Shown: positions 5,633-55,445, numbered from the stretch's first letter. The stretch is DNA of 64,000 nt from Alkalibacter rhizosphaerae (GCF_017352215.1 NZ_CP071444.1:1488001-1552000); one strand, 5' to 3'. Made by a program: numbers and translations. Notes: generated from the sequence alone by a model not told the origin.

Positions 5633-5633
5633 G

Positions 5634-39593: not shown

Positions 39594-39604
39594 TTTTTTC
39601 GGAG

Positions 39605-39793
39605 GGTTTCGACGTGATGGACCACATTCGCCTGACCCTGCAAGCGGACCAGGATGTGGCACAAGCCGTAAAAGCCTTTGAAGAATTCATCAAGGGAGAA
39701 ACCCTGGCAGTGGAAGTGGTATTTACGGAGAACGCACTGGATGTGCAAAACATCAACGGCCATGACACGGGAATCAACGTGGAACGGGTGTAG
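39605..39793 (+). pseudogene. ileS 3'-end fragment (island right boundary)
   Basis: Encodes the last 62 residues of IleS in frame, from GFDVMDHIRLTLQADQD to the normal TAG stop, with no start codon or ribosome site of its own. An ORF through it reaches back to 39500 inside dctM in another frame and is fortuitous. Together with the terminator it forms copy B of the repeat. Confidence 0.95.
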
Positions 39794-39880
39794 TAAAAAG
39801 AATAGAAGGAAATAAGAAAAGAAAAAAGCGAGCTTCTGCCTGTGATAAACAGGTAAAAGCTCGCTTATTTCTTTTGAAGG
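39605..39880 (+). repeat. Direct repeat, copy B: ileS 3' end plus terminator
   Basis: Matches 25690-25966 almost base for base, including the AAGCGAGCTT/AAGCTCGCTT hairpin (about 39826-39869). The terminator now also lies at the 3' end of the minus-strand AbiEii gene, which stops at 39865. Confidence 0.97.
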
Positions 39881-40732
39881 CTATCCGTAATTCCGCAAAA
39901 AAAGTCTGCACTCCAAATATCCAGCACTTTTGGATTTTTTATGAACGGTTCAACATCTTGCTTGGCTTGTGCATAATCGATCGACCGAAATCGGTTGCGA
40001 AGCATTTCTTTGATGTCTTCGAGGGTGATTTCTTTTTCTGAAGGAATGTAGCCTGATTGAGCAAGTCGGGCAACAAGATGTTTGAGATTAACAGAAGTTC
40101 CTTTGGAAAGATAAAATATATAATCATAAAGATCTCTACCTTTAACTCGGTTTTTCCATGATCTACAAATCACAGCGTGTAACTTGCCGGCAAAAAGAGA
40201 TGGCATATCGTACAACGTGACTTCATATGGTATAGGGATGAGTCTATATTTGGTTTCATAGGTTGCATAATCTGGCGGGTTGATATCCACTTCAAATTTG
40301 ATCTTGATCAGCTCTCCGGAACCAACAGTATTTGCGAGGGGTTCATTTGGGAAAAACATCATGAGATGCTCTTTCGTATTGCCCTTTAGAAATGCAGACT
40401 TGATATTGGAGTCAGCGGTTTTTTCCTTTGTCTCGATTTTGAAATTTACGCCATAAGAGCGAATTTCTTTTTCCAGTGATGGTATGTAATCAAGCAAGTC
40501 AAACGAAGGATCTGGTTTTTTCAGCGAAAAGTCCAGATCTTCTGAAAATCTGTCAAGACCATGAAAGATGCGAAGTGCGGTGCCACTGTAAAATGCAGTG
40601 TTTTGAAAAAATCCTCCTCTACTTAATCCGCAAAGAACAATTTCTTGCATGACTTCCTTGATGCTGTTTTTTTTTGTCGGTTGAAGTTAGGATGCTATGT
40701 TGTTGTAACATTTGCTCAATAATTTGATCCAT
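39865..40732 (-). CDS. AbiEii-family nucleotidyltransferase toxin (frameshift in T9 run at 40667-40675)
   Basis: About 288 aa after repair. It begins MDQIIEQMLQQHSILTSTDK at 40732, then continues in another frame as NSIKEVMQEIVLCGLSR; one base too many in the nine-T run separates them. The nucleotidyltransferase core is FYSGTALRIFHGLDRFSEDL (GG/GS...DxD) and a later FAGKLHAVICR with GRDLYDY, typical of AbiEii/DUF1814. AbiEii toxins add nucleotides to tRNA acceptor ends and stop growth during phage infection. The restored start overlaps the antitoxin stop by 17 bp, as is normal for abiE operons. A homopolymer of this length could be phase-variable or a sequencing error. Confidence 0.85.
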
Positions 40733-41318
40733 GTTTCACCCTCCTTTTGAGATACGTCTGCAGTAGTTTGTGATTTTGCGTATTATAATAAGAAGCAATT
40801 TCGATCATATCCTGAATATTGAGATGGAAAAAGTCCTCCTCGTCCACTCGGAGATCTTGAAACACGTATTGCAATAACTCACTTCTGTTCTTTAGCGGCG
40901 ATATTTTGTAGAGCTGATCGCAAATCGCTTTTTCAGGGGATGCGATCTGAAATCCATATCCGTTTTCAATATGAAGTACGACGCCAAGAGGATAGGCTTT
41001 GCTTGGAACATCGCGATAGGTAAAGGTGCCATAGGGTGTCGTATACCTTTTTGTCTTCTTTTTTTCAAAGGTCGCAGAAGTGTAATTGTACACCGCTTCG
41101 GGAATAAGAGAGTGGTATGCCAATGCAAACTCAAAGGACAAATAGGAGGGTCCATAAATGATTGGCGCCAAATAATGTCCAGGAATTTTTGCATCTGTTT
41201 CATACAACCCGCGGATGATCGGTACCAATTCACCGTTGGTGACGAGTCGCCGAATTTTTGCGGTTGGATTTACGTACTCTTTCAGTTCTTGCAGCAGCAT
41301 TGCTGTTGTTTTTATCAT
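40716..41318 (-). CDS. AbiEi-family antitoxin
   Basis: A 200-aa antitoxin with an N-terminal winged helix (TTAMLLQELKEYVNPTAKI, RRLVTNGELVPIIRGLYET) and the AbiEi core GPSYLSFEFALAYHSLIPEA, YTSATFEKKKTKRY and SPEKAICDQLYK. It neutralises AbiEii and represses the operon. ATG 41318 follows AGGTGG by 7 nt; an upstream ATG at 41387 is unlikely. A small inverted repeat AAAGCA/TGCTTT (41332-41350) lies directly upstream and may be its operator. Not closely similar to the orphan AbiEi at 16970. Confidence 0.88.
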   Translation of the reverse strand: MIKTTAMLLQELKEYVNPTAKIRRLVTNGELVPIIRGLYETDAKIPGHYLAPIIYGPSYLSFEFALAYHSLIPEAVYNYTSATFEKKKTKRYTTPYGTFTYRDVPSKAYPLGVVLHIENGYGFQIASPEKAICDQLYKISPLKNRSELLQYVFQDLRVDEEDFFHLNIQDMIEIASYYNTQNHKLLQTYLKRRVKHGSNY

Positions 41319-41350
41319 ATTTGCACCACCTAAAGCAATTATAGTGCTTT

Positions 41351-41687
41351 TAATGGATAGAATCAAGGAAATAATTTCAACAGTCAACTTTACTTCAGAG
41401 CGGCCAGTCCAATGAATAGGGCTGAGTCAGATCAAGTGTCAGTAACAACACGCATTCGTTGGTTCAGTGCGGGTAATTAAGTGTATTAACCCACGATTTG
41501 TATTATTTCACAACGAGTTCAATTATGTGCGCACCATCGTTAGTAGCTATTCCTATCCAAACAATTTAAAATAGTGTAAAATTTGCATTGAATATGTTAT
41601 GATAAAATCAAAACTTACTAAAGTGTTGATTTTTCAATGTTTGACCGTAAGGTTGGCGCCAATGATCAGTGACGGGAGATGCGCACC
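41351..41687. other. Intergenic region without a supported gene
   Basis: Between the abiE operon and the lipoprotein gene at 41688, on divergent strands. I see AT-rich, promoter-like sequence (for example TTATGATAAAAT near 41597) but no convincing ORF, RNA or repeat. Confidence 0.5.
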
Positions 41688-42389
41688 ATGAATATGAAAA
41701 AATATGTTGTTGTCTTCATGATCGCTGTACTTTTGCCGCTTATTTGGGGATGTACGGATTCGAATGAATATTTCGAATTGAAAATGGAGACGGATAACCT
41801 TTCCGAAACAATGCAGAACTATCTGAAGGATCCAAGTCCAAACCACAAAGGATCCGCTTTTCAAGTCAAAGTCAACGATATATATGCGGTACCATATGAA
41901 AATGGCTCGAAAAGGATAACATATTACCGGTACAGTCTGTTGATCGCGCCAGTCACCGATGAACCAATTGAAATTCACTCTATGAAAATTCAACCTATGG
42001 ACAAGAAAATCCAAGACTACCTCAATGGATACACTGCAGTTCTTGGACTTGGCGATCTTCATGAATGGAATTCGCTGACCAACGACATGGTATCGTTTGT
42101 TTTTCGCGATGTTGAAGAAATGATCGCATATCGATGGGAAGTCACGTTCAATGATTTAGGGGAGGATACCTTGCAAAACAGTGAAATTACTGCTGAAGAA
42201 TTGGAACAGGGGATCCGGAATTTTGAGATCGTTGTTGAATACAATAGAAAAAAAGAAGTCATTCCTATTCAAAACGCAGAACTGCGGAGTGTGTCGTCGG
42301 ATCAAGATGAAGTACTCATGAAGAGGGCGGATATTGCAAAATTATATGAAAAGGGATCTGCCTACAGCGTGATGGAACCTTATAGGTAG
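41688..42389 (+). CDS. Lipoprotein of unknown function
   Basis: About 233 aa. The signal peptide has the lipobox LIWGC, so it is anchored outside the membrane. The mature part is acidic and predicted mixed alpha/beta, without a motif I recognise (for example NLSETMQNYLKDPSPNHKGS and ITYYRYSLLIAPVTDEP). ATG 41688 lies 9 nt after GGGAG; ATG 41679 is directly against it. First in a run of small envelope genes leading to the agr region, possibly part of the same accessory locus. Confidence 0.75.
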   Translation: MNMKKYVVVFMIAVLLPLIWGCTDSNEYFELKMETDNLSETMQNYLKDPSPNHKGSAFQVKVNDIYAVPYENGSKRITYYRYSLLIAPVTDEPIEIHSMKIQPMDKKIQDYLNGYTAVLGLGDLHEWNSLTNDMVSFVFRDVEEMIAYRWEVTFNDLGEDTLQNSEITAEELEQGIRNFEIVVEYNRKKEVIPIQNAELRSVSSDQDEVLMKRADIAKLYEKGSAYSVMEPYR

Positions 42390-42455
42390 TTTGCAGGGAT
42401 TGAAGAAGCAATCATCAAATAAGAAACGATGTAGTTCGAATAAAATGACAAGAGG

Positions 42456-42923
42456 GTGATCTACATTACAAGTAAAAATCTGTTGAACAAACTAGGCTTT
42501 CTCATTGTTCTGGTCGTGGTACATGCTGTTGAAATTTTTTATGCATCGCTGTTTCAAGATACGTTTCCCTACTTCGCTTTTCAAGCAGCTGTTCTATTGA
42601 TCATAGGTCTGGCCATGGCATTTGACGACAAGGAAAAGGTGGATTGGAAAAACCGTACGATCTTTTTTGTATTGCCTGCAACGATCCTGATGATGATTCG
42701 GGGATACATTGTTGTGATCGGTGCCATGCTTCGATCGGGAGCGGCTCATGGTGCGTTTCAAGATGGTCTGCCGGTTGTCTTTGAGCAAATCGCCCATCTG
42801 TACAGATTCGGGATTTTTCGAACGTTGTTCTATTCAGAAATGTTGTTTGTTGTTATGGCGGTCCTATTGGGATATGCCTCGGCAACGGCATTCTCAGCAA
42901 GAAAAAGATCAAAGAAAATCTGA
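42456..42923 (+). CDS. Small integral membrane protein, unknown function
   Basis: About 155 aa with four predicted membrane spans (LGFLIVLVVVHAVEIFYASL, FAFQAAVLLIIGLAMAF, IFFVLPATILMMIRGYIVVIG, FYSEMLFVVMAVLLGYAS) and a basic tail SARKRSKKI. The start is uncertain: GTG 42456 overlaps its own AAGAGG site, and an ATT or TTG slightly later might be used. No family recognised. Confidence 0.65.
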   Translation: MIYITSKNLLNKLGFLIVLVVVHAVEIFYASLFQDTFPYFAFQAAVLLIIGLAMAFDDKEKVDWKNRTIFFVLPATILMMIRGYIVVIGAMLRSGAAHGAFQDGLPVVFEQIAHLYRFGIFRTLFYSEMLFVVMAVLLGYASATAFSARKRSKKI

Positions 42924-43000
42924 TCGCTCGTATGATCTCAGTAAAATGTGATTATTTTCTTTTCATTTGGGATGTCCAGTGATGGAAAGGGAGTGGCGAT

Positions 43001-43147
43001 CTGAAATCGGTGTTGTTTATTGAAGACGATTAGGTTCAACGAAATTATATGGTCGATATAGCCCGGTGCTAGGATGCAAATGTCATGAGCCATCAAACAG
43101 ATCTTGTATCAACGGCGATGTACATTGCAATGTACATCGAAATACAA
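43001..43147 (+). pseudogene. agrA fragment (LytTR response-regulator remnant, agr copy 1)
   Basis: In one frame it reads LKSVLFIEDD-stop-VQRNYMVDIARC-stop-DANVMSHQTDLVSTAMYIAM, which aligns without gaps to the receiver start of the intact regulator at 50395 (LKAVLFLEDDKDQRNYLVDI and on). The two stops are TAG at 43031 and 43070. Homology ends near 43147. The preceding GAAAGGGAGTGG is also shared with the intact copy. Confidence 0.9.
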
Positions 43148-43178
43148 GTTCTTTTCTCGATTGAAAAGGAGGATTATT

Positions 43179-43517
43179 GTGGTATTAGAGCAAGAAATCA
43201 GAGTGTACATGTTAATTGGATTTATTATAATTTGGCTAATTATCGGTGTGTTTTTATTCCTTAAATGGAAACATACACGAAATAAAGGAATTGTTTGGTT
43301 TGTGGGACAATTCTTGTCTCAATGTGTTTGTTTTTATTTATTTACTCGTCTTATTAACTTCAACAAAGGTCTTGAAGGGGATATGCTATCTGGATTTAAT
43401 AGTTTAACAATTGGGTTTATGACTTTAGTTTGGGGGATGAGTATGATTTTTATGATTGTTGGAGTTTTGGATTCTTTAAAATATGCAGAGAGTAAAAACA
43501 AAAATATATCACTTTGA
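43179..43517 (+). CDS. Small membrane protein, unknown function
   Basis: 112 aa with three hydrophobic spans (MLIGFIIIWLIIGVFLFLKW, IVWFVGQFLSQCVCFYLFT, LTIGFMTLVWGMSMIFMIVG) and a lysine/asparagine-rich tail. GTG 43179 has AAGGAGG 6-7 nt upstream. It begins 31 bp after the agrA fragment, in the space where the rest of agrA and agrC would have been. No family recognised. Confidence 0.7.
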   Translation: MVLEQEIRVYMLIGFIIIWLIIGVFLFLKWKHTRNKGIVWFVGQFLSQCVCFYLFTRLINFNKGLEGDMLSGFNSLTIGFMTLVWGMSMIFMIVGVLDSLKYAESKNKNISL

Positions 43518-43695
43518 ATTAAAGAAAAGCTGTTTGTAATGGAATCTCTTGCTTCAAACCTCTGGTTAAGCGTGGTAGTTAAATCTGTTAAATTAATAGT
43601 AGAATAGCAAATCAAGTTCTTAGTCTTTATACGAAGGATGGAGTTCATACAGCAACGCTAGGATCTATAAACTAATTCATTGGAGGTTTTGTAGA

Positions 43696-44685
43696 ATGGG
43701 AAATCGATTACGCGGAAAAGTTGCACTTGTTACAGGGTCCGGACAGGGGATCGGAAGGGCGGTTGCCATCGCTCTTGCAGAAGAAGGGGCGAAGGTCGTT
43801 ACAAACAACCGGGGTCCGGTCAAACAGAATGTGGCGAATCAATTGGAGGGCAGGCTTGAACGCCTGACGCCAGAGCAACTCCAATGGTACAACGAAGAAC
43901 TGGAAAAATATACTGGTGATGCGGAAACGACGGCACAGAAGATCCGGGACTTGGGATTCGAGGCGGCAGCTGTTTTTGGCGATATCGCCGATTTTGACAC
44001 AGCAAAAGAGATCGTTGACAAGACGGTGGAGATCTATGGCTCGGTAGATATTGTCGTTAATGTGGCAGGTGCATTTGGCTTTGCCCCCATCGAAAAAATA
44101 ACGGAAGAGCTTTGGGACAAGGTGACCGATGTCAAACCAAAAGGCCACTTCAACATCATTCGCCACGCCGTTCCTTATATGAAGAAAAACAGATGGGGCC
44201 GGATCATCAACTGCTCCTCGCCGGCTTGGACGGGCGGAGGAATTCGTCAGTCCGAGTACTGCGCAGCCAATGCGGGCACAGTGGGCTTGACCTGGGCACT
44301 GGCGGAAGAGCTTGCCGATGACGGCATCACAGCCAATGTTTTCTGTCCGGCTGCAAAGACGCGAGCATCGGTGGATATGGAGCTGTTTGACAAAGTCGTG
44401 GATGAAGACGAGAAGGCCACCAAGTCTGGCGAGCCCCTGGTCAAATATGATGAGACGGCCCCACCCGAGTTGTTTTCCGCTTTTATTCCTTACCTTGCAT
44501 CGGATGAGGCCGCCCATGTTACGGGTTCTGTTTTCTTCACAATGGGAACATTTATTGGCCGCTACTCCAATCCTGCGATCTCCGCCCACATGATTGGTGT
44601 GGATGGTCCGTGGACGGTGGATAAAATTATCCAGGAAGCACCTGAAACCTTATTAAAAGATTACAAGAATATCAACCAGAAATAG
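43696..44685 (+). CDS. SDR-family protein with YxxxN active-site change
   Basis: A 329-aa protein of the SDR superfamily. The dinucleotide loop is TGSGQGIGRAVAIAL, NVAGAFGF follows, and the catalytic region reads INCSSPAWTGGG then SEYCAANAG. The lysine of Tyr-x3-Lys is replaced by asparagine (AAT at the K position). An unusual insertion of about 35 residues follows the second strand. The gene is richer in GC than its neighbours and unrelated to quorum sensing, so it looks like a later arrival between agr remnants. Without the lysine, catalysis may be altered or lost; a base error at that codon should also be considered. Confidence 0.85.
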   Translation: MGNRLRGKVALVTGSGQGIGRAVAIALAEEGAKVVTNNRGPVKQNVANQLEGRLERLTPEQLQWYNEELEKYTGDAETTAQKIRDLGFEAAAVFGDIADFDTAKEIVDKTVEIYGSVDIVVNVAGAFGFAPIEKITEELWDKVTDVKPKGHFNIIRHAVPYMKKNRWGRIINCSSPAWTGGGIRQSEYCAANAGTVGLTWALAEELADDGITANVFCPAAKTRASVDMELFDKVVDEDEKATKSGEPLVKYDETAPPELFSAFIPYLASDEAAHVTGSVFFTMGTFIGRYSNPAISAHMIGVDGPWTVDKIIQEAPETLLKDYKNINQK

Positions 44686-44707
44686 CAGCATTCCAGTTAC
44701 TGCACTA

Positions 44708-44733
44708 CTCCGTTTAGCCATTGCGTAAGGATT
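44708..44733 (+). pseudogene. agrC 3'-terminal remnant (agr copy 1)
   Basis: CTCCGTTTAGCC plus ATTGCGTAAGGATT encodes L-R-L-A-I-A-stop and matches the last codons of the intact agrC at 52391-52416 (L-R-L-A-V-A-stop) in 24 of 26 bases. On the other strand it is the end of agrD. Confidence 0.7.
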
Positions 44734-44854
44734 CCGGGATTTCCGGTTCGCCCCAAAAAAACAGGGATGCTTGCTGGTTTACGATCATTGGCGCGAGCAT
44801 TACAAGCAAGCTAAGAACGGGATAGATGAATATTCGACCGATTCTTTTTCTCAT
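44714..44854 (-). CDS. agrD: AgrD-type autoinducer prepeptide with serine (lactone) ring
   Basis: A 46-aa prepeptide: amphipathic N-terminal helix RKRIGRIFIYPVLSLLVMLA, then VNQQA, the ring segment SLFFW (residues 30-34), and the acidic recognition tail GEPEIPESLRNG. The tail matches the DEPEVPKEL tail that AgrB removes in staphylococcal AgrD. The residue that normally forms the thiolactone is cysteine; here it is Ser30, predicting a five-membered lactone like that of some serine-containing AIPs. AAAGGAG lies 9 nt before the ATG, and the gene overlaps the end of agrB by 44 bp. It would be processed by AgrB, exported, and sensed by AgrC (51128). Confidence 0.88.
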   Translation of the reverse strand: MRKRIGRIFIYPVLSLLVMLAPMIVNQQASLFFWGEPEIPESLRNG

Positions 44855-45410
44855 GAAGATGTTCTCCTTTCATAATGATTAATTGTATGGATTGAAAGAT
44901 GATTGTAAGTGGACCCAATAGAAAAATGGGTTCGCTTTTTTTCAAGCTGATCGCAATGTAAATCAGAGCAAAGAAGGCTGCCGTCGCCTTTAAGCGTTGT
45001 GGGCTGATGGTTAGGACTCTTCTGCTGTTGCTGGGAATTTGAGGAGTGAGGAGAGTGAGGATTCCGCCAAAAACAACACCGAGACCCAGTATGATCCATC
45101 GCAAGTGGGACAGCTTGAATGCGATGCCCATCATTACAGCAAAATACGCGAAAGAAAAGACAAGACACTGGGTGTACGATTTGAAATGTTTTCCTCCGAC
45201 CTTCATTCGCAGCAAGAGGGTGGTGATGGAACCGTACAGAAATTCCAAGCCATGTCCAAAAACACTGAAGGTGAAAAACAGTAGAAGAAGCTTGGACAAG
45301 TCACCGCCAATGGCAAGGAGAGCGTACTGGATTCTCGCCCATTGATCGTTGTCAAACCGGTTGTCCGGATCCAATTTTTTTAAAGCACTAATGCTATTTA
45401 AACGATTCAT
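44811..45410 (-). CDS. agrB: AgrB-type peptide-processing membrane protease
   Basis: A 199-aa membrane endopeptidase that cleaves the AgrD tail and cyclises the peptide. The catalytic pair is His75 and Cys82 in MKVGGKHFKSYTQC, spaced exactly as His77/Cys84 of S. aureus AgrB, after LLLRMK. Four to six membrane spans are predicted. ATG 45410 follows GGAG by 8 nt; ATG 45431 is less likely. It overlaps agrD, forming agrBD. The promoter has a LytTR direct repeat (45495-45524), so the operon is probably autoinduced. No agrCA follows it: the usual kinase/regulator pair is 5 kb away at 50395-52411. Confidence 0.9.
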   Translation of the reverse strand: MNRLNSISALKKLDPDNRFDNDQWARIQYALLAIGGDLSKLLLLFFTFSVFGHGLEFLYGSITTLLLRMKVGGKHFKSYTQCLVFSFAYFAVMMGIAFKLSHLRWIILGLGVVFGGILTLLTPQIPSNSRRVLTISPQRLKATAAFFALIYIAISLKKSEPIFLLGPLTIIFQSIQLIIMKGEHLHEKKNRSNIHLSRS

Positions 45411-45458
45411 TTCAACAACTCCATTGTCCATCGTTTTTTGGGATTACCTGTTACAAAA

Positions 45459-45524
45459 AATATACCACAACAGTTAAGAGGGTTTTGCTACAAAATCGAC
45501 TAAAAAAAGGGGCAAATAGACTAA
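45459..45524 (-). promoter_or_regulatory. agrBD promoter with AgrA/LytTR direct repeats
   Basis: On the minus strand TTAGTCTAT (45516-45524) and TTAGTCGAT (45495-45503) are 9-bp direct repeats, 12 bp apart, the geometry of AgrA sites. A -10 TATATT lies at 45459-45464 (extended by TG) with a poor -35 at about 45482-45487, which suits an activator-dependent promoter. Confidence 0.82.
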
Positions 45525-45673
45525 ATGGGTTGAATTGCCAATTTTATTATGCTAAGTTCTAAGTAGTAGGGGGGTGATGTACCAGTGAGAATGAATAAGG
45601 TGTTTTTATGAAAACTATAGCCGCATAGACAACTATTTTACTACGAAAATAAGATGATATTAAGACCAGCTAA

Positions 45674-47313
45674 TTAGGGCTTACTGAATGAAGCTATAAC
45701 CATTGAAAACACTGACTTTGAGGCGATTTTTTGGTATAATAGATGCAAGGATTATACACTTTTAGTCAAAAAATCTTTGCAGATGGAGGCGCCTCATGTA
45801 CATCAGAAAAACCAACCAGATCAAGTTTTCGGACGACTTTTTCCTGCCTTTTGGCGGAACGCTCAACAAAAACAATCGTTGGTCATATTAGCCGGTATGA
45901 TCCCTTGGTCCGATTTCGAGGATGCCTATGCCAAGAACTTCAAACCCTCCAACAAGGGAGAGGAAGCACTATCTGTCCGAGTAGCTCTGGGAACGTTGAT
46001 ATTGCAAACCAAGATGAAACTGGTGGATGCCGAAGTACCCTTGCAAGTAATGGAAAATCCATACCTCCAGTATTTCCTTGGGTATGACAGCTTTGAAGAC
46101 GATAAGCCGCCGTTTGATTCATCCCTGATCACCCACTTTCGAAAGCGGTTCAAGCCGGACATCCTTATGGAGATAAACAACATCATTGCCATGAAAGAGT
46201 TGGAAACCATTGCTGACAAAAACAATGAGGACGATTCCGATAATAATAATGGCTCTGGTCTAACACCGCCATCAAATGAGGATGTTCAAATCAGCTTTGA
46301 TGACATCCCGAAGAAAGGGAAGCTGATCCTTGATGCGACCTGTGCACCCAGCGACATTCGCTTTCCGACGGACCTGCGCCTTCTCAATGAAGCCCGTGAA
46401 AAGCTGGAAGAGATGATTGATATTCTCCATGCCCCAGACATCAGTGTTTTGCCAAAACCCAGAACCTATAGGAATCGGGCCCGCAAAGACTATTTGTCCC
46501 TGGAGAAGCAGCGCAAGAAACGCAGCAAGGCAATACGAAAAGCAATTCGTAAACAGCTTGGCTATGTGAAGCGGGACCTGGAATATGTAAAATCCTATCT
46601 TGAAGATCCCACAAGGGCTGAACTACTAACAAAACGCCAGAGCGATCAGCTTGGTACCATAGAAAAACTGTACGGACAGCAGCAATACATGTACGATGAG
46701 AGAACCCACAGTGTAGAAGAGAGAATTGTGAGCATTTCTCAGCCATACATCAGACCCATTGTCCGAGGGAAAGCAGGCTCAGACGTAGAGTTTGGGTGCA
46801 AAGTCATGACAAGTGTCGTGGATGGTTACACCTTCGTGGAAAAGCTTGACTTTGATACTTTCAACGAAGGTATTCTACTACAGGAAGCGGTGGAGCAATA
46901 CCGCAGGCGCTTTGGCTGCTATCCGGAAGCAGTTTTAGCGGATTCCATCTTTCGTAACCGCAAGAACCTGGCATGGCTCAAACTTCGAGGGATTCGCATC
47001 AGCGGACCCAGGCTTGGACGAAAACCGAAAGTTGTTCCACCGGAAGTCAAGAAGATACAAAAGGCAGACAATGGTGAACGTAATGTGGTAGAAGGATCCT
47101 ACGGTGTCGGTAAGAGGAAGTATGGCTTGGGCCTTATTAAAACCAAGCTTGAAGATACGACGAAAAGCGTTATCATTCTACAGTTTCTGGTAATGAACTT
47201 GGACCGGAGGCTCCGGTCCCTTTTGTCGCAATTTTGGATTCGCTTCATTTACGACATTAAAGCTAAGAATTTGGCTGCTGCCAACGGTCTGTGAATCGTT
47301 CAGCAAGCCCTAA
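45674..47313 (+). mobile_element. IS5-type insertion sequence
   Basis: About 1.64 kb. The terminal inverted repeats are TTAGGGCTTACTGAA (45674-45688) and TTCAGCAAGCCCTAA (47299-47313), with one mismatch. It carries one transposase gene. No clear target-site duplication is visible beyond AT-rich flanks. It separates agrBD and its promoter from the genes downstream and probably interrupted the gene whose end is at 47314-47548. Confidence 0.88.
45796..47294 (+). CDS. IS5/IS1182-group transposase (frameshift at 45881-45882)
   Basis: About 499 aa when repaired. ATG 45796 reads MYIRKTNQIKFSDDFFLPFG to NKNNRW, then the frame changes and continues ILAGMIPWSDFEDAYAKNF; adding one G after CGTTGG restores NRWVILAGMIPW, the conserved N-terminus of this group. 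The DDE core is visible as LILDATCAPSDIRFPTDL, AVLADSIFRNRKNLAWL and VVEGSYGVGKRKYGLG. It excises and inserts the element. If the frameshift is real the copy is dead; it matches the other one-base defects in this window, so it may be an artefact. Confidence 0.88.
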
Positions 47314-47548
47314 ATTAGATTATGATATTTATACAAATCAAACTGGTTACCAGATTTATGAAAATTCATTTAGTTACAGCTATTCCTGTACCTCGTGGGC
47401 CAGATTATCTTCAGCTCCTCCAAGATGGAAATACACTGGAAGAACTGGTGGTGGTGTAGGTTTCTATATATATAATGATTTTGTAATAACTGCTACACCG
47501 AATATTAACTATTTTAAAGGCCTCCAACTAAGTGCTTACGTTGACTAA
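47314..47548 (+). pseudogene. 3' remnant of a gene cut by the IS element
   Basis: After the right IS end an open frame continues with LDYDIYTNQTGYQIYENSFS and ends GLQLSAYVD. It is rich in Tyr, Ser and Asn, like a secreted bacteriocin- or adhesin-type C-terminus, and has no start of its own. No matching 5' part is visible before the IS, so it was probably deleted. Confidence 0.55.
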
Positions 47549-47600
47549 TATTTGGTCAGGTGCAAGAATGATTTTTGGAAAACAGAAAGAGGTGAAAAGG

Positions 47601-48224
47601 TTGAGCAAATCAGCAGCTGGAAATAAGGTAACTTACCGAATGTGTTTGGTGATTATAGTATTGTTTTCAATATTATTTCTAAGCAGTTGTAGTGAACAAA
47701 ATCAGACAAGCGGTCCATATAAAACAATGCTTGAAGGAGTCAATGCTGTAGTTCATTCTACTGATGAAGATTTAATCTTTGCAAGTGGTGCATATTTGTA
47801 TGAAAACCAAGAAGAATTTGATAATAATCAGCCAGCTTACTCATTAATATTCTATGCAAAGGAACTTGATGGAAATGAGCTGCCTATGTATCATTATATT
47901 GTTCGAGATGATATTGAATTAGCCGAAGAATTCAATATGCCTTTTGTTTCAGAGGAGATGAAGAAAATTGTTGAAACTGCGGAGCTTCAAGATCAACTTA
48001 AACTCATAGAAAAATTTGAAGATCTAACACACAAGGTGGTTGACCTGGCTAAGGAGAAGGATCGACAATTGGACAAAGAGGCATTCTCTGCAGGTTATGC
48101 CCTGTCAGGACACTACGAGGGTTCTGTATTTCATGTTAATACCGTTGGGGATCAAGGATTATTACAAGCATCATACAATACGGACACGGAAGAGCTTGTG
48201 GTTGCTGAGTCACTTGAATATTGA
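47601..48224 (+). CDS. Lipoprotein of unknown function
   Basis: About 207 aa. The signal peptide (MCLVIIVLFSILFLSSC) ends in the lipobox FLSSC. The mature part is acidic, with a helical middle (LAEEFNMPFVSEEMKKIVE) and a glycine-rich C-terminal strand region; no family recognised. TTG 47601 follows AAGAGGTG by 6 nt and gives a normal-length signal peptide; ATG 47568 (after AGGTG) is an alternative. It ends before a strong hairpin terminator at 48263-48310. Confidence 0.75.
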   Translation: MSKSAAGNKVTYRMCLVIIVLFSILFLSSCSEQNQTSGPYKTMLEGVNAVVHSTDEDLIFASGAYLYENQEEFDNNQPAYSLIFYAKELDGNELPMYHYIVRDDIELAEEFNMPFVSEEMKKIVETAELQDQLKLIEKFEDLTHKVVDLAKEKDRQLDKEAFSAGYALSGHYEGSVFHVNTVGDQGLLQASYNTDTEELVVAESLEY

Positions 48225-48262
48225 CGTAAGCATCAAACGGTTCAGGTTCGTATAGAAAAGAT

Positions 48263-48310
48263 AAATGCATAAACAAAAATCCCTCTTTGGGATTTTTTGT
48301 TTATGCATTT
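48263..48310. terminator. Long hairpin terminator
   Basis: AAATGCATAAACAAAAATCCC (48263-48283) pairs with GGGATTTTTTGTTTATGCATTT (48289-48310) with a single bulged T. It closes the lipoprotein transcript; the A/T symmetry could serve either strand. Confidence 0.85.
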
Positions 48311-48396
48311 AGAGTGTAAACGAGCAAAATATTTGACGAAGTCAGAGTGAACAGGTAATCTGTTAGTAGACGTACGAGTTTACAAGAAGGAGTGTT

Positions 48397-50363
48397 GTGC
48401 TGATGATGAGGTGGAGTATTAGGATTGCAAGGTTGATGTTCGCATTATTGGCCGCATTGCTCTTTGTATGGACTCCAACAACTGCCCAGGCGGCTGTATC
48501 CAAGGTTGATTTCGAGATAACGAGTTACCGAATTGATGCCTTTGTGGAATTGGACGGCTCAATGAGCGTACAGGAAGTTCTTGCTTACGAGGGCAGTTTC
48601 AACGGTCAATTTTGGAATTTGGAATATGCCGCCGGTGGGGAAAAATCGAATACCACAACGAATTTGGAGGATCTTGAAGGGAATGCAATCATCTACAACG
48701 CCCATGACATTCAAGACATGAAAGTATACGCTCTCTTAGATCCGAGTGGAACCCTCGGAGCCGATAATTTGCTTGAGTATTCTTTCATTTGGTCTGGTAC
48801 GGGCAATCCTGGTGATTCAGGCGTCTACGAACAAAGAATGGATGATGCCTCGGTAGCCTTAAAAATATTTTCGCCAACCCAGAACCAACAAAAGGTTCTG
48901 CTGATCACGTATCGATTGGAGAATGTGGCGGTATTGCATCGGGATGTTGCCGAAGTTTTTTGGAATTTCATTGGATCCAAGTGGGAGGAACCCCTTCATA
49001 ATGTAGAAATCAACATTCACCTTCCAAAGGCAAGCGAAGAGCTGAAAGTGTTTGCCCATGGCCCTTTGTATGGGACCTCAGAAATTGTCGACCAACAGCA
49101 GGTACGCTTGTCCATTGAAAAAATTACACCGGGTGAAATGCTGGATGGCAGGGTCGTATTCTCAAAAGAGGTACTGGATTCTTCTGAAAAAAGGACCGAC
49201 ATGGAGGCATTGCCTGAAATACTTCGTATCGAACAGCTGAAAGCCAATAAGGCCAACGACATGCGGAGAAATTTTTTGCTGTTGAAATATTTGATCGCCG
49301 GGTTGTCCCTTCTCGGATTGGTCGGGTCAATCGTTGGTGTTTTTCATATTTATAACAAATATATTAAAGAGAAAAAAACCGAGTTCCGTGGGAAATATTA
49401 CAGGGAGTTGCCTTCAGATTACGGCCCTGCCGTGATGAGCTATAATTACCATCAAAAGTTAAACACACCCAAGGATCTGACAGCCAGTATTTTAGATATG
49501 ATCCGCAAGAGAATATTCCGGATTGACATGGAAAAAGTAGAGAAAAAGAGCATTCTAGGGGAAGCAAACAGGGTGAAGAATACACGATCACAGATATCAG
49601 CAAAAATCTGCAAAGACCTTTGACGCCCTACGAGGAATTCATACGCCATTGGCTGATCGAAAAAATCGGAAATGGGATTTCCGCTACTTTTGATGAGATC
49701 GAAGCGTATTCAAAAGACAAAGTAAATGGCGCAGAGTTTTACAAGGACTATGGATTGTGGATGGTTATGGTTCGGGAGGAAGCGGAGAACTATGAGTTTT
49801 TCGATCCAACGGCGAACAAAGGAATCGCATCGGGGATCTTGATCGGTATAACAGGGATAGGCCTTGGTGTTTTCGCAATATTTCATGGAATTGTTTTAGG
49901 GATCGCGAATATCCCCGTTGGGATTCTGGTGATTGTTTGTTCTGCACTCATCAAACAGCGAACAAAGGAAGGCAATGAAGAATACGTCAAGTGGAAGGCT
50001 TTTTCCAGGTTTTTAAAAGACTTCAGCAAATTGGAAGATGCTGTTGTACCATCCGTCATTTTGTGGGAGCATTATCTGGTATATGCAGTATCCTTGGGCA
50101 TTGCCGACAGGGTCATAGATGCCATGCAGGTTTTTTTGAAACCGGATGACTTTGCCAATCCGGGGTTGACTTTCCTTGGAAGTAGTTACATGTATGGCGG
50201 GTTAACCGCAGTGCATGCGCTGAACACTTCCTTTACAAATGTTACCAGAAGTGCCATGCAAATTGCTTCAACCCAGAATTCCTCCGGCGCAGGTGGCGGT
50301 GGTGGTTTCAGTGGAGGAGGCGGCAGTGGCGGCGGCGGTGGCACAGGTGGTGGGGGATTTTGA
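48397..50363 (+). CDS. DUF2207 membrane protein with glycine-rich tail (frameshift at 49558-49561)
   Basis: About 655 aa when repaired. The signal peptide (residues 8-32, ending AQA) leads into the extracellular DUF2207 domain: VDFEITSYRIDAFVELDGSM and VQEVLAYEGSFNGQFW. A membrane span (LLKYLIAGLSLLGLVGSIVG) and a cytoplasmic part follow; the frame breaks after KKSILG and resumes as SKQGEEYTITDISKNLQRPL when one G is added to the GGGG run. Two more spans and the typical Gly/Ser tail (GGGGGFSGGGGSGGGGG) close it. GTG 48397 or ATG 48403 after AAGGAG starts it. The family function is unknown. It directly precedes agrAC. Confidence 0.87.
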
Positions 50364-50394
50364 TCCAAAATTCTTCCTGAAGAGTTGACGATTC

Positions 50395-51141
50395 ATGTGC
50401 AAGAAAGGGAGTGGGAATCTGAAAGCGGTATTGTTTTTGGAAGACGACAAAGACCAACGCAATTATTTGGTTGATATAGCGCGTCGCTACGATGCGGATC
50501 TTACGATTCACCAGACAGAGCTTGTATCAACGGCGATGTACATGGCGATGAACAACGAAATACATGCCTTTTTCATCGATGTTGTTCTGCCTGACGGCAA
50601 TGGCATTGATTTTGCCAGAAAGATCAGAAGCTTCGAGCAGTATCAGTTCACGCCCATTGTTTTTATTACAGGGGATATTCAAAGAGAATTGGAAGCTTTT
50701 CGAGAAGTGCATTGCTATGATTTTATTACCAAGCCCTATCATGAAAAAGTCGTTGAAGAGACATTGCAAAAGATCTTGGTGGACTACTTGGGGATGGAGA
50801 AAAGAGATGCCGATAATAAATTCTTCGATTTGGAATTTAAAAGCCAAACCCATCGCATCAACATCAAAGACATCATTTATTTTGAACGCATGAATCGGAA
50901 GATCTTTATCAAGACCCTTTATGAAGAGATCATGTACAAGCAAACCAGTTTATCTCAAATCCTGGAACAACTCCCCGCTCAATTTATGCAAATCCATCAA
51001 TCCATCATAGTAAATTTGAACTACGTGGAACGAATCGATTTCAAGGCAAACGAGCTACATTTGAAAAATGGTGGAGCGCCTCTGCCTGTAGGAACCAGTT
51101 TTCGAAAGAAAGTGGGGGAACAATTCAGTGACATTCGTTGA
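50395..51141 (+). CDS. agrA: AgrA-type LytTR response regulator (agr copy 2)
   Basis: A 248-aa two-component regulator: receiver domain (residues 10-125) with acidic pocket LEDD, phospho-acceptor Asp in FFIDVVLPDGNGIDFA, and switch lysine in FITKPYHEKVV; C-terminal LytTR DNA-binding domain (about 140-245) with HRINIKDIIYFERMNRKIF and FMQIHQSIIVNLNYVERID. It should bind the 9-12-9 direct repeats at 45495-45524 and 52521-52550. The GTG start of agrC lies within its last codons. Its N-terminal coding sequence is duplicated as the pseudogene at 43001. Confidence 0.92.
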   Translation: MCKKGSGNLKAVLFLEDDKDQRNYLVDIARRYDADLTIHQTELVSTAMYMAMNNEIHAFFIDVVLPDGNGIDFARKIRSFEQYQFTPIVFITGDIQRELEAFREVHCYDFITKPYHEKVVEETLQKILVDYLGMEKRDADNKFFDLEFKSQTHRINIKDIIYFERMNRKIFIKTLYEEIMYKQTSLSQILEQLPAQFMQIHQSIIVNLNYVERIDFKANELHLKNGGAPLPVGTSFRKKVGEQFSDIR

Positions 51142-52411
51142 GACGTTTTTGCTTTCGATCTTTGACACGGTGATGATTTTGATCATCAGCCATCGAATCA
51201 GGAGGGATGTATTCACAACGTTCCTGCAAAAGGTTTTCTTTGTTGTCCTTACGACCGGCTTCATTGCTTTTTTTAGCACCTATGTTTCAAACAATCATAT
51301 ATCCCATCTTCTATCTGTAATTTTTACCATAACCAGCATCAACATGTACTTGCGTTTCGGTGGAGAGAAAAGCATTGTACGTAATACTCTGTTGTTTTTC
51401 ACCACATCCATCATGCTCATCGCAATTCAAATGCTGACCATTGTAATCGTGCATTTGGTTTTTGGAAACATCGAGTATACCTTTACCAATGGCTTGCTTG
51501 CCCAATCCACCAGCATCATCATCGTGGTTCTGTTGGCAAAATTTGCTCCACTGCAAAAAATCGATGCATTTATTGTAGGAACCAATACGTTGTTTCGCTT
51601 TGTGATCACAACGACTTTTGTATTGTATTATGGCATCACCATTCTTTGGTTCAGCGACATTCAGTTGGTCACAGCGACACCTCTGGGGGCGATTGTTTTG
51701 ATCATGTTGGCAGTGGTTGTCAATACGATCATTCTTCGGGAAGGTTTCGTCAACGAGATGTACAAGAACAAGCTGGAGGTTTTGGAAACCTACACCCCCA
51801 TAGTGGAGGACATGATCACCGAATTGCGCTCCAGACAGCACGACTATCACAACCATATTCAGACACTGATCTCCATGAATTCCGGTGAAACCTTTGCATC
51901 GGAACAAGCCGACAAGTATATTGACGACATCACCAACAACGAACTGTTAAACATACTCAGGAAGATGGACGATCCCATAGTAGGTGCCTTTCTTCATAGC
52001 AAGGCCAGGGAAGCATCCAAGTATGGAATGGACATGATCCTGGATATCAAACGCCGCATACCGGATTCCATTTTCGAGACCTATGAACTCATTGAAATGT
52101 ATGGGATTCTCATAGACAATGCCTTTGATGCTGCAAAATGTGTGGATGCTTTCCCAAAGTCGGTTTTTGTTACAGTGGATCAGAAAGACAACCACATCCT
52201 ATTCGAAGTCAGAAACCACTACGGGTATGTGAGCATTAAAGACATCAACGGTTTCTTTCAGAAAGGAAACACCACAAAGACCGTACCCGGCCATGGATTT
52301 GGCTTATATAAGTTGAAAAGAATGTTGGAGAAGAAAAGCAGTTCCATACTTTTGTCCTATGACACAGAAAGGGAGCAAATCGTTGCCCAACTCCGTTTAG
52401 CTGTTGCGTAA
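51128..52411 (+). CDS. agrC: AgrC-type sensor histidine kinase (agr copy 2)
   Basis: A 427-aa HPK10-type kinase: six or seven N-terminal membrane spans (to about residue 215) form the peptide sensor, then the H-box LRSRQHDYHNHIQTLISM, the N-box YGILIDNAFDAAK and the G-box GHGFGLYKLKRML of a GHKL ATPase. It would detect the cyclic peptide made from AgrD and phosphorylate AgrA. GTG 51128 overlaps agrA by 14 bp. Downstream, where agrDB should lie convergently, only scars and the terminator GTGAACCC/GGGTTCAC plus T7 (52438-52468) remain. Confidence 0.92.
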   Translation: MTFVETFLLSIFDTVMILIISHRIRRDVFTTFLQKVFFVVLTTGFIAFFSTYVSNNHISHLLSVIFTITSINMYLRFGGEKSIVRNTLLFFTTSIMLIAIQMLTIVIVHLVFGNIEYTFTNGLLAQSTSIIIVVLLAKFAPLQKIDAFIVGTNTLFRFVITTTFVLYYGITILWFSDIQLVTATPLGAIVLIMLAVVVNTIILREGFVNEMYKNKLEVLETYTPIVEDMITELRSRQHDYHNHIQTLISMNSGETFASEQADKYIDDITNNELLNILRKMDDPIVGAFLHSKAREASKYGMDMILDIKRRIPDSIFETYELIEMYGILIDNAFDAAKCVDAFPKSVFVTVDQKDNHILFEVRNHYGYVSIKDINGFFQKGNTTKTVPGHGFGLYKLKRMLEKKSSSILLSYDTEREQIVAQLRLAVA

Positions 52412-52483
52412 GGATTTTGCTTGATTGATCATTGAAGGTGAACCCAAGAAAAAGGGTTCACTTTTTTTATGGGGACAGCAATG
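52391..52483 (-). pseudogene. agrDB scar (agr copy 2)
   Basis: The 26 bp at 52391-52416 match the end of agrD in copy 1 (minus strand reads ...SLRNS-stop against SLRNG-stop). The 52430-52482 segment matches an internal stretch of agrB at 44901-44959 (GATTG..AGTGGACCCA..GAAAAA..GGGTTCGCTTTTTTT pattern). In between and beyond, agrD and agrB are deleted. The GTGAACCC-loop-GGGTTCAC-T7 hairpin here ends agrAC. Confidence 0.75.
52438..52468 (+). terminator. agrAC terminator
   Basis: GTGAACCC (52438-52445), 8-nt A-rich loop, GGGTTCAC (52454-52461), then seven T. A G-U-paired version of the same hairpin is buried inside agrB of copy 1 (about 44909-44940). Confidence 0.9.
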
Positions 52484-52520
52484 CCGTTCACTACATAATC
52501 AAAGCTTGTTTTGCTATAAA

Positions 52521-52550
52521 ATCGACTAAAAAAAGGGGCAAATAGACTAA
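52521..52550 (-). promoter_or_regulatory. Second LytTR direct repeat (relic of agrBD promoter)
   Basis: TTAGTCTAT (52542-52550) and TTAGTCGAT (52521-52529) on the minus strand, 21 bp apart, in a block of about 40 bp almost identical to 45484-45525. It points toward the agrDB scar, so it is the promoter remnant of the deleted operon. It may still influence the plus-strand lipoprotein gene at 52651. Confidence 0.78.
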
Positions 52551-52650
52551 CGGGGTTGTATTCATTGATGCGTTTCGATATTTTTAAAGGAAACAAGTCC
52601 GCATTTGCCCTTGACTTGGAAAAGGTAAAAACGAACGGAGGATCAAAAGT

Positions 52651-53184
52651 ATGGCGAAAAAAATAGCTGTTCTCCTGGCGCTCTCTTTGTGTTTTACGAT
52701 GCTGGGTTGCAGCAACATCACTAATAGAAGAAGAGACAAAGAAGTCTTTGAAACCTTCCTGCAAGATTATTACGCTCAACTCACCATGACAAGCAGCGAA
52801 TGGCATGAGATAAAAGAGCTTTTGAAAGAGGATTCAAAATATAGGAAATGTAGATATGTAAACAACTTCAATGGGATCTTATCGGAAACGTGTCTTGAAC
52901 GAATGGTTTACAACCAATTGTTGCCGAACTATGAGATGGAAAAAACCGGCATTGAAACCATAGCATTCAGTGACTTGATCCTGAAGAAGAAATACGAAGG
53001 AATCTATCATGATCTTGAAAAGGACGAGAATGTACCCTTTACCATATACGAAGTGAGCTATATCTTACGTGTTAAGAAAAATGGGGAGGTAACCTCATTT
53101 ACAAATAAAAGCGAAGTCCGTTTCATTTCGAAAGACGAAAGACGGATGATCGACCACGTCATAGGGGATTTTGTTTGGAGGTAA
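52651..53184 (+). CDS. Lipoprotein of unknown function
   Basis: A 177-aa protein with a clean signal peptide MAKKIAVLLALSLCF and the lipobox TMLGC. The mature part is charged, with ETFLQDYYAQLTMTSSEWHE near its start and the C-terminal ISKDERRMIDHVIGDFVW. No family recognised. It starts 100 bp after the relic LytTR repeat and 240 bp after agrC; it could be a target of the Agr system. AACGGAGGATC precedes the ATG. Confidence 0.78.
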   Translation: MAKKIAVLLALSLCFTMLGCSNITNRRRDKEVFETFLQDYYAQLTMTSSEWHEIKELLKEDSKYRKCRYVNNFNGILSETCLERMVYNQLLPNYEMEKTGIETIAFSDLILKKKYEGIYHDLEKDENVPFTIYEVSYILRVKKNGEVTSFTNKSEVRFISKDERRMIDHVIGDFVWR

Positions 53185-53322
53185 AAATAAAGATAAAGTA
53201 TACTATTTTTACAAAATGTTGTAAAATGGAAATAAACATTTCTAACTATTTTAGATATCGTTTGAAATTTGCTTTGTTCAGGGAATAATCAATTAGAAAA
53301 ATTTAAGTCTGGAGGATGTGGC

Positions 53323-53502
53323 ATGAAAAAAACCTTTCTAGCGGGACTTTTCGTGCAAGTGGTGTTGTTTGTTGCCGCCTTGGTGATGAAGGATTGGCAA
53401 GTCATGGCCAAAGGAAACATCCCCGTGTTGATGATCGGGTTCGTAGCCATGGGTGCCAATGCGCAAGGCGCCGGTGGTTGGGAATTTGTTGGTGCGAAGT
53501 AG
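53323..53502 (+). CDS. Small membrane protein, DUF5316-like, ends at an in-frame TAG
   Basis: ATG 53323 (after GGAGGATGTGGC) encodes 59 aa: MKKTFLAGLFVQVVLFVAAL, a second span PVLMIGFVAMGANAQ, then GGWEFVGAK and TAG (53500-53502). The same frame stays open for 43 further codons to TGA 53634, and those codons read DEKNRIFSYRSRVLLKWF and a third hydrophobic span (FMLPGILVMVGIYLAL), just as DUF5316-type proteins continue. So the gene is likely a full 100-residue protein broken by a nonsense change or a base error. No pyrrolysine machinery is seen and TAG is a normal stop here. Confidence 0.55.
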   Translation: MKKTFLAGLFVQVVLFVAALVMKDWQVMAKGNIPVLMIGFVAMGANAQGAGGWEFVGAK

Positions 53503-53718
53503 GATGAAAAAAATCGCATCTTCAGCTACCGCTCCCGAGTGCTGTTGAAATGGTTTCTGTTCATGCTGCCCGGTATCCTGGTCATGGTGGGAATTTATCT
53601 GGCACTTGGAGAGTTGCCGGGTTTCATGAGTTGATCCATCCTCATTACAATCCATTAGCATAAAGACCATTAGGTCTAAATTGAATCAGGATCACGAAAT
53701 TTTCTGGAGGTAATATCT

Positions 53719-54270
53719 ATGAAGTCGTCAGCTTCAAAAAAAGTGGGAATCCTTTTGCTGTTGCTCATGGTACTGTTTAGCATAGTAGGTTGCAGTAAAA
53801 CCGATCAGCTTGACTTAGGTGAAGGTGTCGGAGCGGTTTGTATGCCCGGCAAAGCAGGTGAGAGCAGAACGTATGCAGGAACCTATGTTGTACATGACGG
53901 GAACCGGGAGATCACTGTTGTAGAGATTTCCCTGATCAACCCTAAGGATGTTGACATACTGGAGGCGTGGTTTTTAGAGATCGATCCATCCGATACCACT
54001 CTGGTGGGTTATGTGAATTGGCCTTTGGAGAGGATCCCATTGCTTTGGGATGAACGAGTTCCTGTGGAAGGGGTGGTTTTGAAACCGGGTGATGAGCGAA
54101 ACCTTGTGGTTGTTGTTACCTCCACGGCTGAAGACATCGCATCCTTCGAAGGTGTCCGGATCGTGTATAAAGATAAACTTGGAAGGAAATACACACAAAA
54201 TACTTTGGATTGGTGTTACATCTCAACAAATGGTTGTGATGGTGTTATAGACGAATATTATCAAAAATAA
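53719..54270 (+). CDS. Lipoprotein of unknown function
   Basis: A 183-aa protein with signal KKVGILLLLLMVLF and the lipobox SIVGC. The mature domain is mostly beta-strand (ITVVEISLINPKDVDILEAW, RNLVVVVTSTAEDIASFEGV) and has two cysteines near its C-terminus (DWCYISTNGCDG) that could form a disulfide. No family recognised. It ends at a perfect hairpin (54271-54302). TCTGGAGGTAAT precedes the ATG. Confidence 0.8.
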   Translation: MKSSASKKVGILLLLLMVLFSIVGCSKTDQLDLGEGVGAVCMPGKAGESRTYAGTYVVHDGNREITVVEISLINPKDVDILEAWFLEIDPSDTTLVGYVNWPLERIPLLWDERVPVEGVVLKPGDERNLVVVVTSTAEDIASFEGVRIVYKDKLGRKYTQNTLDWCYISTNGCDGVIDEYYQK

Positions 54271-54302
54271 GAAGCAGTGGACAACATTTTGTCCACTGCT
54301 TC
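54271..54302. terminator. Hairpin between lipoprotein and rib operon
   Basis: GAAGCAGTGGACAA (54271-54284) and TTGTCCACTGCTTC (54289-54302) form a 14-bp stem with a 4-nt loop. It lies between convergent genes; T-runs are short, so strength is uncertain. Confidence 0.8.
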
Positions 54303-54963
54303 TACATATTTTCCAGTAAAGGAATCAATTCTTCCATGTGGTCAATAACCCCGGTGGCGTGCACAAATTCCTGGGGCATACCATAACCGTAGCGGCAAGC
54401 CACTGACGGGAGGCCGTTTCGAAAACCTGCCTCCACATCGTGGATACGGTCACCCACCACCAAGATCTCTCTTTGGTATTGATCCATCACTTGTTTCAAA
54501 ATGACATGCTTTGGCTGAAAATCGTAGGATTCACTGATGATGTAGTCATGAAAGAATTCATCCAGTCCGTAGATCTCTCGAACCGCATCCTTGTAGGAAC
54601 CCCGGCAATTGCTGAAAAAGACCAGTTTGATTCCCATTAAGCGCAAGGCTCCCAAAGTTTCCTTCACCCCCGGATACAATCGTCCCTGCCCATTTTTCAA
54701 CAGCAGGAGCATTTCCCGTCGGATCTGTTCGCTGGCTTGCAGCTTTTCTTCTGCAGGAAGATGTGGCATAAACTCCTCCCACATGTCTTTGGCATTATGA
54801 CCCAGCCACTGTTGGATCTCTTCATCGGAAAAGGAGCGGGGGGAGCCAGCCCCTTTTCCGTCAGAGTTTGATAAGCTTTTCGAAAAGCCGGCAGATAGAT
54901 CCGTCCCGTTTCGTGAAGGGTGCCGTCAAAATCCAGAAAGACCGTTTGAATGTTTGCGGTCAT
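54302..54963 (-). CDS. HAD-family phosphatase in the riboflavin operon (frameshift at 54838-54843)
   Basis: About 220 aa when repaired. The N-terminus FLDFDGTLHETGRIYLPAF carries the HAD nucleophile motif; the frame then breaks in a C6 run and resumes at RSFSDEEIQQWLGHNAKDMW if one base is added. Later motifs are FFSNCRG (Thr/Ser motif II), QPKHVILKQ (Lys) and ILVVGDRIHDVEAGF (acidic motif). Its ATG begins one base after the stop of ribH, so it is the last gene of the FMN-riboswitch operon. A HAD phosphatase is required to dephosphorylate the ribitylaminouracil phosphate before RibH acts, and this gene is a strong candidate for that step. Confidence 0.85.
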
Positions 54964-54964
54964 G

Positions 54965-55426
54965 TTACAGTTGGGCCAAAAGATTGGCCATCTCTATAGC
55001 AGTGACAGCGGCTTCGAATCCTTTGTTGCCTGCTTTGGTGCCTGCCCGCTCGATGGCTTGCTCGATGGTGTCCGTAGTGAGGACGCCGAAGATGACCGGG
55101 ACATTGCTTTCCAGGGAAACACTGGCAACCCCCTTGGATACTTCGTTGGCGACAAAATCAAAGTGTGGCGTGGAGCCTCGAATGACTGCCCCAAGGGTGA
55201 TGACGGCGTCGTATTTTTTAGAGACGGCCATTTTTTTTGCCACCAGAGGGATCTCGTAAGCACCGGGAACCCAGGCGATTTCGATGTTTTCATCCTTCAC
55301 ACCGTGGCGTACCAGGGCGTCGATGGCGCCGGAGAGAAGCTTGCCTCCAATGAATTCGTTGAATCGTCCTACGGCGATCCCAAATTTTTGTTCTTTCGCA
55401 ATCAGTTGTCCTTCATACGTTTTCAT
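54965..55426 (-). CDS. ribH: 6,7-dimethyl-8-ribityllumazine synthase
   Basis: A 153-aa protein of normal size. It joins 5-amino-6-ribitylaminouracil with dihydroxybutanone phosphate to make lumazine. The family motifs [44 protein letters not shown] with the catalytic histidine region, and [19 protein letters not shown] (a phosphate-binding and dimer motif) are all present. Fourth gene of the rib operon, 20 bp after ribBA, with GAGGAAAAC before the ATG; it probably assembles into a pentamer or a 60-mer cage. Confidence 0.97.
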
Positions 55427-55445
55427 AATGTTTTCCTCCTTGGAT

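Follow-up and report, generated by a model that had tools for sequence, protein, structure and literature searches.

Two decayed, complementary copies of a convergent agr cassette in Alkalibacter rhizosphaerae, and the peptide quorum-sensing circuit probably divided between them

A stretch of 64,000 nucleotides of the Alkalibacter rhizosphaerae genome (GCF_017352215.1, NZ_CP071444.1:1488001-1552000; hereafter the window, whose positions are used for coordinates) contains two remnants of a convergent agr cassette, in which agrA-agrC face agrD-agrB. Copy 1 retains the signal half (agrD-agrB) and copy 2 the receiver half (agrA-agrC), and these halves are 5 kb apart with an insertion sequence (IS) and other genes between them. 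As had been proposed from inspection of the nucleotides alone (the sequence-only reading), they probably make up a single peptide quorum-sensing circuit of the Agr type that is spread over two decayed copies, a reading to which we assign a probability of roughly 0.72. The genome is a single contig of 2.45 Mb with a completeness of 98.9%, and absence or uniqueness of a gene or site in it was established by searches across the whole genome, beyond the 64-kb window.

The two copies were compared by BLASTN (42900-45700 against 50350-52650), using 500 dinucleotide shuffles as the null. Four blocks were obtained, collinear and on the same strand: the 5' part of agrA (42985-43161 with 50403-50580, 79% identity, E 2e-39), the 3' end of agrC (44701-44733 with 52384-52416, 88% identity), a block internal to agrB (44892-44942 with 52421-52468, 80% identity) and a control site (45482-45536 with 52508-52562, 93% identity, with a run of 33 identical bases). 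Each block individually outscored 500 of 500 shuffles; the matches first noticed at 43001 and 52391-52550 are thus far above chance, and the description of two decayed, mutually complementing Agr cassettes holds. Terminators and regulator sites can look alike without common descent, so that the shorter blocks other than agrA (the end of agrC, the agrB block and the site) might in principle be chance or look-alike resemblances in a genome that only ever had a single cassette. This explanation is excluded by the alignment, since four blocks share order and strand, each beyond all shuffles, and since the similarity of the agrB block continues upstream of the hairpin that it contains.

No further AgrB-family gene, AgrC relative or Agr-type regulator was found in the genome. 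A second AgrB match (genome position 692267) was rejected as a stretch of an MFS transporter. The second LytTR regulator of the genome was also rejected, being a member of a LytS-LytR pair and not of Agr type. The parts of exactly one circuit are therefore left, in two places, and this inventory, together with the recognisable ends of the IS, agrees with the earlier statement that one signal maker and one receiver remain on either side of such an element. The four agr genes, one of each genome-wide, are not linked at one locus; since orphan agrBD loci are also called agr in the literature, this split counts against calling the locus canonical but leaves the identification of Agr parts untouched.

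Both genes of the signal half are intact in copy 1, as first read for 44714-45410. The agrD gene (44714-44854, minus strand, 46 amino acids) reaches 22.2 bits with TIGR04223 (cut-off 19), and its product shows a ring residue and an acidic, proline-containing tail (ASLFFWGEPEIPESL); the ring is predicted to be SLFFW, with Ser replacing Cys, and an identical ring is predicted in the intact cassette of a relative (G179). The agrB gene (44811-45410, minus strand, 199 amino acids; ATG at 45410, alternative start at 45431) reaches 66 bits with PF04647 (cut-off 23) and encodes the sole genuine AgrB of the genome, with His 82 and Cys 89, seven residues apart, conserved in the AgrB alignment. The receiver genes of copy 2 (50395-52411) are likewise intact, in line with the same reading and with the REC, LytTR and GHKL domains found by Pfam. 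AgrA (50395-51141, plus strand, 248 amino acids), the only Agr-type regulator in the genome, exceeds the cut-offs of PF00072 and PF04397 and is far under that of the AgrA equivalog NF046049. AgrC (51128-52411, plus strand, 427 amino acids), a GHKL kinase and the only AgrC relative, scores 40.5 bits with PF14501 (cut-off 22), its His 238 and Asn 331 being invariant in the alignment.

The lost halves have left traces in both copies. The agrA remnant of copy 1 (42985-43161, plus strand) is a 5' part with in-frame stops at 43031 and 43070, then a frameshift; the two stops had been correctly seen, but the remnant has about 59 codons and not the 49 then given. The agrC remnant of copy 1 (44701-44728, plus strand), which overlaps the end of agrD, comprises the last codons and the stop, and had been identified as such. 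In copy 2, 26 bp had been taken for the end of agrD; the homology to agrD is real, but agrC and agrD overlap tail to tail, so that the same piece equally represents the 3' end of agrC. About 53 bp described as an agrB scar are similarly homologous to agrB, but they do not look like a passive scar, since they correspond to the predicted terminator hairpin of agrC.

This hairpin (52434-52468, plus strand; 8 Watson-Crick pairs, then 7 T; -14.7 kcal/mol, z -4.3) is the sole remaining piece of agrB in copy 2, where deletions of about 150 and 500 bp have removed the sequence on its two sides and spared it. Its counterpart in copy 1 lies within agrB on the opposite strand (44907-44942, plus strand; -14.5 kcal/mol, z -3.7) and is predicted to end rightward transcripts as an intrinsic terminator. 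On the agrC strand it is followed by seven T, and it is equalled by only 2% of synonymous-codon shuffles; its G-U pairs are Watson-Crick pairs in the copy 2 hairpin. In both copies the hairpin would thus function as terminator of agrC transcripts. A simple terminator scan listed neither hairpin of the window; both were detected by RNA folding.

Nested terminators were searched in 13 agrBs of the convergent cassette type and in 7 usable control agrBs not facing agrC (an eighth control, taken in an incorrect frame, was excluded). An antisense terminator reached by at most 2% of synonymous-codon shuffles was present, 125-199 nt from the agrB stop, in 7/13 cassette-type agrBs, and in 0/7 controls by the same test. 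The combined synonymous-shuffle p was 5e-6 over the 13 agrBs, with related loci counted separately, and 0.92 for the controls; when related genomes were collapsed, the group contrast became weaker (5/11 vs 0/7, p = 0.054). The same scan gave no agrB-internal terminator in G005, G179, G245 and G102a. The nested terminator is common, not universal, and the agrB terminators found in 7 of the 13 make it probable that transcription of the receiver genes stops within the signal gene in many intact cassettes. The reverse case, a terminator of agrBD inside agrC, was above nearly all shuffles in G334, G129, G102a and G245; the candidate of this kind in the window fails the shuffle test and was rejected.

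The control site shared by the two copies is an AgrA-type tandem repeat, a pair of 10-mers with a 21-bp period (AAATCGACTA-11-AAATAGACTA), located at 45493-45523 in copy 1 and, in identical form, at 52519-52549 in copy 2 (both plus strand). These are the only two sites without mismatch in the genome, one per agr remnant; a third or further site was rejected, extra matches being no better than those of a reversed-pattern control. The site is identical at 33/33 positions between copies, against about 80% identity for the other shared blocks, and because 33 identical bases have p ~6e-4 at an 80% background, it has probably been kept by selection. Several relatives have sites of 21-bp period in the equivalent position, some of them with two such sites in divergent orientation. 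AgrA is predicted to bind the repeats at the promoters of the circuit.

Promoters at these sites were searched by a geometry scan (-35 beginning 15-17 nt beyond the second repeat's start, spacer of 16-18 nt to the -10). A putative right-facing promoter was obtained in each copy: TTGAAT-17-TAAGTT in copy 1 (45530-45558, plus strand, 16 nt past the point where the second repeat starts), and TTGTAT-17-TATTTT in copy 2 (52556-52584, plus strand); shuffled regions reach a score one lower in 48/3400 cases (1.4%). The first leads into a decayed, IS-cut gene, and the second towards a lipoprotein-like gene (52651-53184, plus strand, no family match), which is proposed as the Agr output from its position after the site. 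The interval 52521-52550 had been interpreted as the agrBD promoter; it is instead the AgrA-type repeat site, and the promoter geometry there is rightward, away from agrB. The copy 2 site has probably survived as an output promoter. Facing agrB, a candidate extended -10 (TGG-TATATT, 45459-45467, minus strand) may use the AgrA-type site of copy 1. The slot divergent from agrB, which is the RNAIII position in Staphylococcus aureus, is filled by protein genes, and a search of 38000-56000 against Rfam at the gathering threshold gave no match, hence no RNAIII as in the S. aureus type of agr.

A profile search over 391 genomes of the class yielded the convergent cassette in a genome of the same family (G005) and in nine others (G179, G236, G143, G334, G245, G102, G129, G350, G225). 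In G005, agrA-agrC converge on agrD-agrB free of lesions, and the output slot, divergent from agrB, holds a lipoprotein gene whose product is 45% identical (E 7e-52) to that of a second lipoprotein gene of the window (53719-54270, plus strand). Relatives with an undisrupted locus of the agrACDB type, for which the sequence-only reading had asked, thus exist (G005, G179, G334, G245, G129, G225, G102 and others). With the above-chance blocks and the evidence from G236 and G143 given below, they uphold its scheme of cassette duplication and then reciprocal loss, which applies alike to a tandem origin and to an acquired close copy. The two agrA copies show 10 differences at first, 5 at second and 21 at third codon positions, and this third-position excess (p = 0.002) indicates that both were functional for a time before copy 1 decayed.

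Complementary decay was found in other genomes. In G236 (single contig), a first cassette has agrA, agrC and agrD intact and its agrB split by a transposase gene; a second cassette, about 9 kb off and 89-94% identical to the first, has intact agrD and agrB but lacks agrA and the first third of agrC. G143, which belongs to the family of G236, has a single complete agrA-agrC, adjoining a frameshifted agrB, and an intact agrD-agrB adjoining an agrC stump; five agrB copies or pieces and four agrD-like genes occur within about 20 kb (L088, L071; G143:C18:370900-391200). As the lesions differ, the losses in the window, G236 and G143 look independent. Duplication followed by reciprocal loss is supported by these sequences as a recurrent process, and suggests that the convergent layout is prone to duplicating and splitting repeatedly. 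Two other genomes, G350 (L065) and G434 (L064), have two agrC (the second divergent from agrB), one agrA and one agrD-agrB, which is a duplicated receptor rather than a split circuit. Two agrB-agrD units of G143 give identical matches, which points to local multiplication of an agr cassette.

How the second copy arose was considered separately. In a genome of the same genus (G002), about 160 bp separate the sequences that flank 39.8-54.4 kb in the window (the left anchor being a single 128-bp match), so that this block is an island, or was lost in G002; no tRNA or Rfam family accounts for the island borders or for the intergenic site. The second cassette could have been transferred horizontally from a close relative into this variable island and have undergone the same reciprocal loss, an alternative that we consider somewhat unlikely, and that is compatible with a divided circuit since it concerns the origin of the second copy alone. 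The island-like state relative to G002 speaks for it, as do the merely ~80% identity of the copies and the SDR gene that stands in place of copy 1 agrC (43696-44685, plus strand, adh_short). The latter has 84% DNA identity to a gene of G005, which belongs to another genus, whereas core genes compared inside the window's own genus are about 70% identical; it was therefore probably acquired horizontally. However, no donor is known, the copies are mutually closest known relatives (the next AgrA being at 43%, at the protein level), and the similarity and proximity of the two G236 cassettes fit local duplication. The sister species (G001) carries, where the agr island lies in the window, a different pair of LytTR regulator and kinase (L102, G001:C29, reverse strand 3782-5820).

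A divided circuit would have been formed from an ancestral cassette in which agrA-agrC converged on agrD-agrB, followed by the AgrA-type site and an output gene. This cassette would have been duplicated, or a close copy would have arrived, both copies being functional for a time. Copy 1 then lost agrA and agrC, an SDR gene and a membrane open reading frame (ORF) filling the gap, and copy 2 lost agrD and agrB by two deletions that spared the agrC terminator and the AgrA-type site, the latter now probably driving the rightward lipoprotein gene. In the proposed circuit, AgrB of copy 1 would process AgrD of copy 1 into a peptide with a Ser ring (SLFFW), which AgrC of copy 2 would sense, phosphorylating AgrA of copy 2; AgrA would act on both identical sites, at the promoter of the copy 2 lipoprotein gene and perhaps at copy 1 agrBD. 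The anatomy, the duplication, the complementary losses, the nested hairpin and the identity of the sites are established by the sequence, whereas continued signalling between the halves, the chemistry of the ring, the directions of the promoters and termination at the hairpin are predicted.

Several observations weigh against such a working circuit. The nearest AgrC relatives (L009, L010, L011), and with them the entire AgrC clade, are without an intact neighbouring agrDB, their genomes carrying a different AgrB elsewhere, so that copy 2 might act as a receiver on its own. In AgrB, RMKVGG stands where the relatives have the motif R-P-F-S-G-G, and its branch is long, indicative of fast evolution; AgrB may thus itself be decaying. 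The geometry scan found no agrB-facing promoter of the usual geometry in either copy, so that signal feedback may be weakened or absent. These features favour an alternative in which the halves are uncoupled, agrA-agrC of copy 2 hearing other cells' peptides or another cue and agrD-agrB of copy 1 being on the way out. We regard this as rather improbable. The agrB and agrD genes are open over 246 codons, against two stops in about 56 codons of the adjacent agrA remnant, at whose stop density about 9 stops would be expected (assuming that all parts of copy 1 were released from selection simultaneously); moreover, the His and Cys of AgrB are kept, AgrD is above its family cut-off, its predicted ring matches that of the intact G179 cassette, and the AgrA-type sites are identical in both halves. 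These features are more consistent with halves that may still be signalling to each other. Regarding the relatives, L009 (an Alkaliphilus metagenome-assembled genome, 9523-9780) has intact agrA-agrC, an agrB of which about 52 codons remain, and a pair of opposed AgrA-type sites with a AAGGGGCAAATA core common with the window site; L010 and L011 have same-clade agrA-agrC with no agrD-agrB adjoining and are candidate stand-alone receivers.

For the opposite losses themselves, neutral loss after duplication suffices when one signal and one receiver must stay, and a special force is unneeded. A more speculative model, which we hold to be unlikely, is that in convergent cassettes the receiver mRNA ends in agrB (with the signal mRNA possibly ending in agrC at some loci), that the resulting mutual antisense acts as a brake, and that duplication with loss of opposite halves, occurring repeatedly, removes this brake. 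If so, the terminator retained in copy 2 would be a trace of the antisense-brake design.

The remaining features of the region are as follows. An ORF of 137 amino acids resembling a membrane protein (43104-43517, plus strand, from the ORF list; no Pfam match) emerges from the agrA remnant and occupies the former agrA/agrC gap; as it starts within the remnant in another frame, its N-terminus is recycled agrA sequence. Downstream of the copy 1 site, the reading frames suggest the start of a decayed output gene (45608-45673, plus strand; MKTIAA, then a stop), which is cut by the IS and may have its 3' end at 47315-47548; the fragment encoded beyond the IS is unlike the output proteins of relatives. 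The element between the halves (45674-47313, plus strand) belongs to the IS5 family, with 18-nt inverted ends at 45674-45691 and 47296-47313 and a transposase at 45777-47294 (NF033578, 1e-112). Beside agrA, a DUF2207 gene (48397-50363) is in two overlapping frames in the window, and is probably frameshifted here, because both parts share one frame in G001 and G002 (L104, L103).

In a small search of the open-licence literature, no report was found of complementary decay of duplicated agr cassettes, nor, in the agr literature, of an agrC terminator inside agrB or of an overlap of this kind between signal and receiver operons. The Clostridioides difficile agr2 locus is an agrACDB locus for which a single transcript has been suggested (PMC3754575), with the same four genes in the order A-C-D-B; in Clostridium acetobutylicum, agrBD and agrCA are separate operons (PMC10301443), and the likeness lies in the same four genes and in the separate transcription of the two pairs. 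According to these descriptions, each is complete and occurs once at its site, in contrast to the two half-lost copies found here. Orphan agrBD loci, such as agr1 of C. difficile (PMC8534292) and agrBD of Clostridium perfringens, for which VirRS is the proposed receiver (PMC3673130), also have signal genes without an adjoining receiver; here, however, the proposed receiver derives from another copy of the cassette, lying 5 kb off, and remnants of the lost halves are visible. A serine-ring autoinducing peptide, a lactone, is known from Staphylococcus pseudintermedius (PMC3673130). The AgrD studied here shares the Ser for Cys in the ring, whose formation is predicted from the sequence, and Ser-type AgrD was found in several convergent cassettes (G005, G179, G236, G143, G334). 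The parts of an Agr system are thought to co-evolve, because signal and receptor must match, and a circuit split over two decayed copies would make the match of diverged halves directly testable. Overlapping convergent transcripts are known as regulators in the excludon, in which an mRNA extends antisense into the opposing gene. The terminators nested in agrB suggest a comparable physical coupling of genes at the RNA level, with the difference that the overlap, as deduced here, would link two operons, for signal and for receiver, that belong to one quorum-sensing circuit.

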